From Vibrio lentus (GTDB lineage: Bacteria > Pseudomonadota > Gammaproteobacteria > Enterobacterales > Vibrionaceae), in the NCBI RefSeq assembly GCF_030409755.1, contig NZ_JAUFQE010000001.1, forward strand, positions 1,736,001 to 1,800,000: 64,000 nt of DNA, written 5' to 3'. Position numbers and translations under genes: made by a program. Every line of letters starts with the position of its first letter. Within the stretch, counting starts at the first letter, position 1. Shown here in pieces: positions 24,362 through 26,749 of this stretch. The notes beneath the pieces are model-generated. The model was not told the DNA's origin and did no database searches. It saw nothing but the letters and a program-made list of their open reading frames with translations.

Positions 24362-24574
24362 GGCGTTTCCTTAGTTAATACCTGATTGGTAACTGCAAAT
24401 AAATTAGTTGTTAGCTGAGCTTTCAGTTTTTCTGAGGCTCCTTGCTTGCTTCGGGGCGAACCTTAAGGCTTTTCGTTTAACTAAGAAAACGAATTAAATT
24501 TGTCGAGTCGATAACAGAAATTTATCGTATGCGTGAGTGATTGGTACAGCAGGGTTTAGAGGGCGTTTTGAATG

Positions 24575-24638
24575 GAAAAGCGAGTTGAGACCTAACTCAT
24601 ATTGGGGGTAGGAGCATATTAGGTTGTACTCAACTCGC
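24575..24638 (-). terminator. Terminator hairpin with C-rich apical loop
   Basis: Outer stem GCGAGTTGAG / CTCAACTCGC (10 perfect pairs) and inner stem ACCTAA / TTAGGT enclose a 23-base loop. On the minus strand TTTTCC follows directly. This is the 3' end of the candidate sRNA. Confidence 0.8.
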
Positions 24639-24662
24639 GTTAACTCGGTGCTTAAAAGTGTA

Positions 24663-24761
24663 CTAATAACGCCAGTTACATAGCTCTATAAGTGTTCGTA
24701 GTGCTTCTCTTTCGAGCTTGCTACAGGTGCTTTTAAGCTTATTAAGATAGTATTTTCTCAT
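24663..24761 (-). CDS. Small basic protein, 32 residues (SgrT-like candidate)
   Basis: ATG 24761 has GAGAAG about 8-9 nt upstream, and TAG at 24663 closes a 32-codon frame. The peptide begins MRKYYLNKLKS and ends LIELCNWRY. It is short, basic and amphipathic, with a leucine-rich second half. E. coli SgrT (43 residues), encoded inside SgrS, inhibits the glucose PTS transporter and also starts with Met-Arg followed by polar and aromatic residues. The resemblance is from memory and weak; position beside sgrR is the main argument. Confidence 0.5.
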   Translation of the reverse strand: MRKYYLNKLKSTCSKLEREALRTLIELCNWRY

Positions 24762-24964
24762 GATGATTACTTCTCTTGTATTAGGCTTTGGTGGGAACTC
24801 AAAGTTCCTTGTTGACCCATTAATTATGGTCATTTAATAGGAAGTAATAAACAGATGGTTTTTTACTAAGTTGTTCCTGTTTTTGTCTTTTAGCGCTACT
24901 TTTTGGCCGATGTGTTTTATAATGGGCTTAATCAGGAAGGTTTTTTTCTAAAAAGGTTCATTAT

Positions 24965-26749
24965 TTGTCTGATCTAAACATGATGCGTTACTACACAAGG
25001 CTAGATTCGTTTGAGCCTAACCTCTCACATTCGGTTACCTTAACTGAGGTGGCAGACAAGCTGTTCACCAGCTTGCGCCATGCACGAACTTTGTTAGGCA
25101 AGATGCATCAGGCTGAATGGTTGGTGTGGGAACCAAAAGTCGGCAGGAATCAACGTTCTAATCTGACTTTACGTTTTAGCAATCAAGAATTGACTCAACA
25201 TGTTGCTAGTAAACTGATAGAGCAGGGCAAATACGAAAAAGCACTCTCAATTCTAGACAACGACCGCGCGATATTTGGCTCTCTCCTCCAAGAAACCTCT
25301 GGCGCGACGATGCGTGAAGGGCTGCTGCACGTTCAATTAACCTATAAACGTAAGTTTGAAGACCTATTTCCGCATCATATTCACCGCAGTAGCGAACGAT
25401 TTTTGATCAGGCAAGTGTTCAGTTGCTTAGTCACTTGTAATGGCAAGGGCAAGTTGAAGTCTGAACTGGCGCACCATTGGGAATATGATGCTGAAAAATT
25501 AGTTTGGACTTTCTATTTGCGCCCTGGCTTAACCTTCCACGATGGTCAACCCGTCGACGCCAAGCAACTCGTGTCGTTATTTACCGCCTTACAACCGCTA
25601 CCTTTCTATCAGACAGAGTTAGCCCATGTTGCTTCGGTTTACAGTGAACAGCCGTTAAGGATCAGCTTCCAATTGACCAAAGCAGACACCGGCTTTGCGG
25701 GCTTATTGGCTGGCGTTAAGTATTCGATTCAACCTGCTGCGCAAGTGACTCGTGAGCCATCGCCCTTAAATTCGGTGTCTCATGCCGTGATTGGAACCGG
25801 TCCATTTAAAGTGGTTGAGACTAATAACGAACGTATAAAACTTGCCGCGTTCGAACATTATTACGGGTGTCGTTCCCTGACGGATGAAGTGACGATTTGG
25901 CAATTCGAAGAGTCGATGACGGGCAGTGCTCGCTTTGATGACAGCCAAATGCAGGTGTCACCTTATGAAGATTCGTCTTGTTTTCATCAACTCGGAAAAA
26001 GCGACGCGAAGCTGGTGTCGGCTGAAACTGATGGCCTTCGTAGCCGAGTCGAGGATGGGTGTCTGTTTATCCTATTCAATCAGAACTTAGCGGCTAGCCC
26101 ACTAAATAATGAGCAGCGAAAATACCTTTCAGAACTGACCAACCCACAAGCGATTTTGTCTCAGTTGGAACGTAACAAGGGTTTGTTTAGTGTCTCTTTA
26201 GCTCAAAACATACTGCCAAGTTGGCAGGAGTTGTATCGAACGCCTGCGAAAGAGACGCAACTGCCGAAAAAGATGAGTATTGCAGTTTACGACTATTATG
26301 CGTTGCATCGATGTGCTATCTGTGTGTCAGACATACTCAAGCGATATGGCGTGGAAGTGGAGGTGAATACTTATAGCTTTCGCGAACTGGCGCAGCTCTC
26401 TCAAAGTGGCGATTTAAAAGAAGACTTGGTGCTGTGTAACTTGAACCTAGACGACAATGCGCCATCTTCGCTGTTCTCGTGGTTGATGAATGACCCTGTT
26501 TTGCACTCGGCACTAGGTGAGATGAACAGTGATTGGCTCAAACAGCGCTTAGATCATCATAAAGCCTCGGTTGAACTGCCGAATTACTTGGCAGAGTTGG
26601 AGCCCGTTGCATCGACGTTGATTTCTGATTATTGGTTAGTGCCTATGTTCCATCATCTACAAACCGTGCGTTTCCAAGGCATTTTGAAAAATGTGGCCAT
26701 CACCAACTGGGGGTGGCCAGATTTCAAAAATGTATGGTCTGCTGATTAG
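24965..26749 (+). CDS. sgrR: SgrR-family transcriptional regulator
   Basis: SgrR senses sugar-phosphate stress and activates sgrS in enteric bacteria. The 594-residue protein has an N-terminal winged helix (residues ~15-70: TLTEVADKLFTSLRHARTLLGKM) fused to a solute-binding domain of the oligopeptide-binding type (VWTFYLRPGLTFHDGQPVDA, IGTGPFKVVE). This DNA-binding plus SBP layout is specific to SgrR. The start is TTG 24965, with AAGG 8 nt upstream; ATG 24980 is an alternative. A -10-like TATAAT lies at 24918-24923. Confidence 0.92.
   Translation: MSDLNMMRYYTRLDSFEPNLSHSVTLTEVADKLFTSLRHARTLLGKMHQAEWLVWEPKVGRNQRSNLTLRFSNQELTQHVASKLIEQGKYEKALSILDNDRAIFGSLLQETSGATMREGLLHVQLTYKRKFEDLFPHHIHRSSERFLIRQVFSCLVTCNGKGKLKSELAHHWEYDAEKLVWTFYLRPGLTFHDGQPVDAKQLVSLFTALQPLPFYQTELAHVASVYSEQPLRISFQLTKADTGFAGLLAGVKYSIQPAAQVTREPSPLNSVSHAVIGTGPFKVVETNNERIKLAAFEHYYGCRSLTDEVTIWQFEESMTGSARFDDSQMQVSPYEDSSCFHQLGKSDAKLVSAETDGLRSRVEDGCLFILFNQNLAASPLNNEQRKYLSELTNPQAILSQLERNKGLFSVSLAQNILPSWQELYRTPAKETQLPKKMSIAVYDYYALHRCAICVSDILKRYGVEVEVNTYSFRELAQLSQSGDLKEDLVLCNLNLDDNAPSSLFSWLMNDPVLHSALGEMNSDWLKQRLDHHKASVELPNYLAELEPVASTLISDYWLVPMFHHLQTVRFQGILKNVAITNWGWPDFKNVWSAD

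Follow-up and report, generated by a model that had tools for sequence, protein, structure and literature searches.

A window of 64,000 nucleotides from Vibrio lentus (assembly GCF_030409755.1, contig NZ_JAUFQE010000001.1, positions 1,736,001 to 1,800,000), by which the whole stretch of DNA analysed is meant, carries next to an sgrR-like gene a unit that is probably the Vibrio counterpart of SgrS/SgrT: a dual-function RNA, linked to sgrR, whose seed lies in the loop of a terminator-like hairpin. The unit itself, its covarying stem, its conserved loop, its protein family, and its linkage to sgrR are established by sequence comparison. The original prediction had already read the locus as such a counterpart with a different seed and a different peptide, and this reading is upheld by the linkage to sgrR (44 of 44 genomes), by the conservation of the seed, and by an excess of synonymous changes in the open reading frame (ORF); its description as a single Vibrio locus was too narrow, as the family is widespread in the genus.

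The proposed layout, namely a minus-strand unit divergent from sgrR with a 5' hairpin and a 32-codon ORF behind a ribosome site, is present in all its elements (Table 1), the ribosome site AGAGAAG upstream of the ORF being weak. A 3' hairpin ending in a T-run had also been proposed; the hairpin, with its covarying stem, stands, and the T-run is there yet consists of only four T and is weak. The predicted RNA fold reaches -58.6 kcal/mol against a shuffle mean of -44.3 kcal/mol (z -3.43) and beats 200 of 200 dinucleotide shuffles, and a simple terminator scan and a promoter scan of the window gave no match at the unit. Within the loop of the 3' hairpin stands CTCCTACCCCC (24614-24604, minus strand), and the seed part TATGCTCCT (24618-24610) is the predicted pairing partner of the ptsG Shine-Dalgarno region.

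A DNA search of 148 genomes of the genus matched 27, including two short strays (G134 and G019). Among 25 aligned close loci, which include V. fortis and V. profundi, the loop is kept in all, with minor variants in L021, L023, and L028, and the stem in 24, the exception (L020) being split by an insertion; the stem of V. profundi is quite different in sequence yet paired. For covariation, 21 of 27 distinct hairpins were aligned (omitted were L013, L014, L026, and L044 as well as the insertion-split L020 and L047; L011 and L023 were missed by the pattern of the hairpin script). A total of 91% of the cells in this alignment are paired, and 5 pairs, or 14 cells, have changed on both sides, compared with maxima of 45% paired, 2 pairs, and 3 cells when the stem was slid as a control. 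It should be noted that one of five covariation measures, that of further pair types, stands at the level of shuffled letters (242 of 500 shuffles reach its value), and that the outermost A-T pair, added to the stem by the analyst, fails in 19 of 21 rows. The alignment across Vibrio that had been suggested as a check yielded compensatory changes in the stem, along with the synonymous excess in the ORF described below. Loss of both ORF and hairpin from close relatives that keep sgrR, named beforehand as a result that would speak against the proposal, was not seen in the close clade, where two hairpins are split by insertions (in G108 and in the assembly of Vibrionales bacterium SWAT-3). In both split copies (L020 and L047), foreign sequence begins at the same point just past the C-run of the seed loop; the insert in G108 (L135, 2137-3282) encodes an IS110-family transposase.

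R1, a model of the 3' hairpin built from close relatives only, gave a match at E <= 0.1 in 47 of the 227 Vibrio genomes searched, and the match was strong in 44. These 44, two of which have the split copy (G108 and SWAT-3), are exactly the genomes among the 227 whose SgrR is at least 65% identical to that of the window. Of the three weak matches, those in G151 and G070 adjoin sgrR and that in G199 lies away from it. The genes downstream of the unit, rimK in the window, vary between lineages, which indicates that the linkage is to sgrR. The comparison was extended to 80 less similar sgrR-like genes (42-52% identity; the top matches down to 42% among the matches listed, second copies being mostly skipped), each represented by ~1.1 kb about its start; with G151 and G070 this gave 82 loci. 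A finder that calls CTCC...CCCC in the loop of a stem was positive in 64 of the 82 loci, compared with 0 of 82 on the reverse strand, 0 of 82 with reversed letters, and 0 in five shuffles. When the stem condition was dropped, the motif was found in 65 loci, in 64 of which it sits in a stem loop, versus 119 of 1640 random windows. The stem arms of these distant relatives differ in sequence yet pair (40 distinct 5' arms among 64 loci), and a T-rich tail is present in 53 of the 64. Further, unfiltered R1 searches of 46 distant loci at E <= 10 hit the position of this hairpin in 35 loci, 19 of them at E <= 0.1, and gave 11 matches elsewhere. In total, at least 108 of the 227 Vibrio genomes carry the unit, about half of those examined. 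In four genomes that look cholera-like by peptide (G033, G057, G061, and G088) the unit adjoins an SgrR gene, and in three of the four it lies on a contig of at least 2.9 Mb. In cholera-like genomes (L199 671-1099, and L202) the RNA is followed by a gene starting MAIRNVVFDVGNVIVKW or similar, with a weak match to pyrimidine nucleotidase models.

Table 1. Features of the sgrR-linked unit in the window (positions are those of the window)
Feature	Position	Strand	Basis
Putative dual-function RNA, ~250 nt	24576..24828	-	fold and conservation
5' hairpin GGAAC-TTTGA-GTTCC	24794..24808	-	sequence, fold
32-codon ORF MRKYYLNKLKSTCSKLEREALRTLIELCNWRY, member of a new small-protein family	24663..24761	-	ORF list, profile, codon changes
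3' hairpin, 10-bp stem GCGAGTTGAG/CTCAACTCGC, long loop	24580..24638	-	covariation
Seed TATGCTCCTACCCCC in 3' hairpin loop	24604..24618	-	loop conservation, predicted ptsG pairing
T-run TTTT after 3' hairpin, weak as intrinsic terminator in this clade	24576..24579	-	sequence
Candidate -10 box TATTAA, expected start near 24828	24834..24839	-	inference from alignment; consensus scan without match
Candidate operator GGAAC...CTGTTT...TTCC, overlapping expected -35 region	24840..24877	-	relatives' alignment
sgrR-like regulator gene, 594 aa, divergent from RNA	24965..26749	+	Pfam SgrR_N 3.2e-30, SBP_bac_5 1.3e-26

Judged by its profile and its codon changes, the ORF is a member of a new small-protein family. 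The 24 aligned peptides share the core xYYxxRLxxSxSxLExxALxxLIxLCxW, with one invariant E, and lengths across the family run from 28 to ~60 residues. Across 13 distinct ORFs of the splendidus clade, 11 synonymous codon changes fall on 19.3 sites, against 13 changes of other kinds on 76.7 sites; three of these 13 occur only in the broken copy of G122. At E <= 0.01 the peptide profile has matches in 126 of 329 Vibrionaceae genomes, not all of them beside sgrR; among 20 more distant matches inspected, 11 have a divergent SgrR as neighbour and the other 9 lack one. Additionally, 28 database proteins match the profile. Those named to species are Vibrio 'hypothetical proteins', among them entries from V. 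cholerae, V. vulnificus, V. natriegens, V. jasicida, and V. metoecus; the V. cholerae proteins P0037 and P0044 closely resemble the peptide of G033. No Pfam family fits the peptide, and neither a comparison of 24 peptides with SgrT (PF15894) at E up to 1 nor a BLASTP search with the window peptide gave a match to SgrT. An hhalign comparison of the peptide profile with SgrT returned a probability of 4.4% (E 0.009) over 14 C-terminal columns only, the LxxLxxW part.

A peptide so widespread, found in some genomes in the order sgrR-peptide-glyoxalase where no such hairpin was seen, raises the question of whether the unit is mainly a small mRNA, with the peptide as its product and the 3' hairpin merely as its terminator. 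This explanation is unlikely. The part of the hairpin that is conserved is the loop, not the stem, and the loop persists in both relatives in which the ORF is broken (G122 and G030). Moreover, a peptide script was positive at 33 of the 64 loci with the hairpin, and the loop is kept in the remaining 31, at least three of which (L185, L201, and L205) do have a peptide that the script missed; there appear to be many shorter RNAs that lack the peptide ORF. Similarly, the available text of one report describes the ORF as missing from Yersinia SgrS and from some SgrS lineages (PMC4021124).

Pairing with ptsG was predicted for the RNA and its relatives. Of 32 genomes searched, 29 had a ptsG-like match, and 25 leaders were readable, the starts of four not being found. 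When each genome's loop was paired in silico with its own ptsG leader, 19 of the 25 cases showed an uninterrupted perfect match of 9 nt or more and 23 showed one of 7 nt or more, in line with the original claim that the C-rich loop is complementary to ribosome-binding sequences. UCAGGAGCAU occurs in 24 of the 25 leaders, and E. coli ptsG carries CAGGAGCA at the same place. Target prediction against leaders of the sugar phosphotransferase system (PTS), also suggested beforehand, favoured these mRNAs as well: in the genome of the window, 12 PTS start regions taken together bind the loop more strongly than the 351 other start regions (p 0.0005) and than genes with a strong Shine-Dalgarno site (p 0.0025), one of ten EIIC genes (L092) having been omitted from the set on account of its unclear start. 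With the loop that is widespread in Vibrio, only one of 353 start regions ranks above crr. A genome-wide search for the complement of the loop returned the RNA locus itself as the only match free of mismatches, and the corresponding pattern gave 101 matches, fewer than the 194 of the reversed pattern.

Several observations weigh against the reading of the unit as an SgrS/SgrT counterpart. First, the presence of the same UCAGGAGCAU in nearly all leaders means that the pairing hardly varies. A matched change may be seen in G080, whose leader has GGAGCAUGAA and whose loop has UUCAUGCUCC; a second candidate, G179 (leader AGGAGCUU, loop UUAGCUCC), counts for less, since a whole group (e.g., G173) has the same loop letter with an unchanged leader, which leaves G080 alone of the two. 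In G030 the pairing spans 6 nt only, and G092 has no matching pairing. Second, the reversed loop also prefers PTS start regions (p 0.04, and 0.10 versus genes with a strong Shine-Dalgarno site), indicating that part of the PTS signal comes from G-rich PTS leaders meeting a C-rich loop. Third, ptsG does not rank first among the targets in the sampled genome: binding is equal or better at 19 of 353 start regions, and CUCCU matches many Shine-Dalgarno sites. Fourth, 18 of the 82 distant loci failed the finder, although L180, L188, L203, and L204 among them resemble variants by eye; the T-run in the clade of the window is short; and transcription of the unit is a prediction from sequence. Finally, the SgrR homologue of V. 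cholerae that one paper studies, VCA0578/DsvR, has a different regulon according to the available portion of that paper (PMC13060122).

The readiness of CUCCU to suit many ribosome sites, the several non-PTS start regions that bind better, and the slight preference of the reversed loop for PTS leaders would all be expected of a base-pairing RNA with targets outside the PTS, in which the match to ptsG is a by-product of an anti-Shine-Dalgarno-like seed. Such an RNA is nevertheless an improbable explanation of the unit, given that the match often reaches past the Shine-Dalgarno core, that crr ranks so high, and that the neighbouring gene is sgrR.

If the unit is the counterpart of SgrS/SgrT, the RNA would be transcribed from a promoter divergent to sgrR, and SgrR would most likely activate it upon build-up of sugar phosphates. 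The C-rich seed, UAUGCUCCU with the C-run, would be displayed in the loop of the 3' hairpin, where its predicted pairing with the Shine-Dalgarno region of ptsG, presumably assisted by Hfq, could block translation. Other PTS mRNAs, namely crr, treB-like, ptsH, and nagE-like, are probably targets too. The 5' part would also be translated, and the small protein probably acts in the same response, the simplest guess being that it directly inhibits a sugar transporter as SgrT does.

The regulator encoded beside the unit is 27% identical to E. coli SgrR and scores 278 bits against the NCBIfam SgrR equivalog NF010149, under the cut-off of 476; over the part compared, it is 89-95% identical to SgrR of V. 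splendidus, V. lentus, V. tasmaniensis, V. crassostreae, and V. chagasii, the organism being a Vibrio of the splendidus clade. GGAAC...TTCC stands upstream of the RNA in 24 of 25 aligned close loci, and a TATTAA or TATTAT box follows the TTCC in 18 of the 25. The looser arrangement GGAA...TTT...TTCC was present in 30 of 65 regions (shuffle mean 0.2) and a GTTCCNNTTT-type box in 41 of the 65 (shuffles 0.59), both patterns having been composed after inspection of the sequences; the E. coli sgrR-sgrS interval contains AAAGGGGAAC. The GGAA...TTCC arrangement and the GTTCCNNTTT-type box suggest possible control of the RNA by SgrR. Three further SgrR_N genes are present in the genome of the window (G000:C1:462073, C1:1301980, and C2:401974), and the regions upstream of them, read by eye, held no comparable unit, though one of them has a TTCCTACCCCCC hairpin ~480 bases from the SgrR paralogue (L033, G000:C1:461591 region). 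No such unit was seen either at the second SgrR copy of that genome or at the probable orthologue of this copy in G211. On the other side of the unit, a conserved stretch, TCGACTCGACAA, perhaps an operator, is found upstream of rimK (window ~24495-24520) in 24 of 25 aligned relatives.

Beyond Vibrio, G277, a genome of another genus, has SgrR, peptide, and loop hairpin together. Within its genus, four loci (L300, L305, L312, and L313) have the peptide beside sgrR and a glyoxalase-like frame directly next; the C-rich loop hairpin was not seen in these four. Nine genomes of one genus, belonging to another family of the order, match the peptide profile as well. Both of the two such loci examined have a divergent SgrR, with an intact glyoxalase next in L329 and an interrupted frame in L330; in L329, which has the order sgrR-peptide-glyoxalase, the C-rich hairpin was not seen. 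Methylglyoxal, which is known to arise when sugar phosphates accumulate in excess, is removed by glyoxalases, and such a neighbour fits the proposed role in sugar-phosphate stress. In another genus of the Vibrionaceae, nine loci (L297, L298, L299, L301, L306, L307, L308, L310, and L311) hold peptide-like ORFs (e.g., FYLQRLNDTENKEEYDAI...LCNW), upstream of which no SgrR frame was found. The chances appear evenly balanced that a glucose-phosphate stress module, consisting of SgrR and a dual-function RNA with its seed in the terminator loop, is widespread in Vibrio, extending to at least half of the genus with V. cholerae and V. vulnificus included, and that the peptide family is older than the RNA and stands elsewhere between sgrR and a glyoxalase gene. 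If true, the ancestral module would have consisted of SgrR and the peptide, with the RNA function either added to it or lost from it.

Among known systems, two Vibrio RNAs invite comparison. A separate locus with the layout of VcdRP lies beside pepD, which we take to be VC2279, in the same genome as the unit (L038 ~3599-3295, minus strand, G000:C2; 28-residue ORF MKGLPSAMFWLNSSVYTSNFAYPTSFGY, and TCACCCCTAT), the fit being by published layout, and identity of the unit with VcdRP was dropped. As described in the available text, VcdRP of V. cholerae represses PTS mRNAs with a C-run, its 29-aa product VcdP acts on GltA, and the RNA is repressed by CRP and encoded between vc2278 and vc2279 (PMC8672173). 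Although the unit resembles VcdRP in being a Vibrio dual-function RNA with an ORF upstream of a C-rich seed and with PTS mRNAs as (predicted) targets, that it is an orthologue or recent paralogue is most improbable, given that separate VcdRP-like locus and the differences in locus, neighbours, seed context, and peptide. TarA of V. cholerae, compared by description only, is a small RNA reported to repress ptsG, the predicted target of the unit also; it is activated by ToxT in the available account (PMC5225090), unlike the control by SgrR proposed here.

For SgrS itself, the accessible text of one paper states that V. cholerae lacks it, discusses VCA0578, and leaves an analogous system possible (PMC13060122), and that of another reports SgrS as not identified in V. 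cholerae though an SgrR homologue is present (PMC12345230); both relate this to the sensitivity of V. cholerae to sugar phosphates (PMC13060122, PMC12345230). With the unit in about half of the Vibrio genomes and its peptide annotated in V. cholerae, the question of SgrS in that species becomes directly testable. No published description of this RNA was found in the available text of the literature searched; a 2012 survey of small RNAs in V. splendidus by Toffano-Nioche et al., outside that search, may list the transcript. Neither in the window nor in 12 related loci did Rfam covariance scans detect SgrS or another relevant family. The unit and SgrS are alike in being divergent from sgrR, in length (~250 nt versus 227 nt in E. 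coli), in having a small ORF (about 40 codons) ahead of the pairing part, in carrying a brief conserved stretch complementary to the region where ptsG translation starts (predicted in Vibrio), and in the absence of the ORF from some lineages. They differ in the letters of the seed, in its placement (in the loop of the terminator-like hairpin in Vibrio, upstream of the hairpin in SgrS), and in the peptide, that of the unit being distinct from SgrT. On present evidence, then, this would be an RNA family that works like SgrS/SgrT yet matches neither the Rfam nor the Pfam model of those two, adding a new small-protein family and offering a natural comparison for the evolution of seed position, peptide, and regulator in dual-function RNAs.
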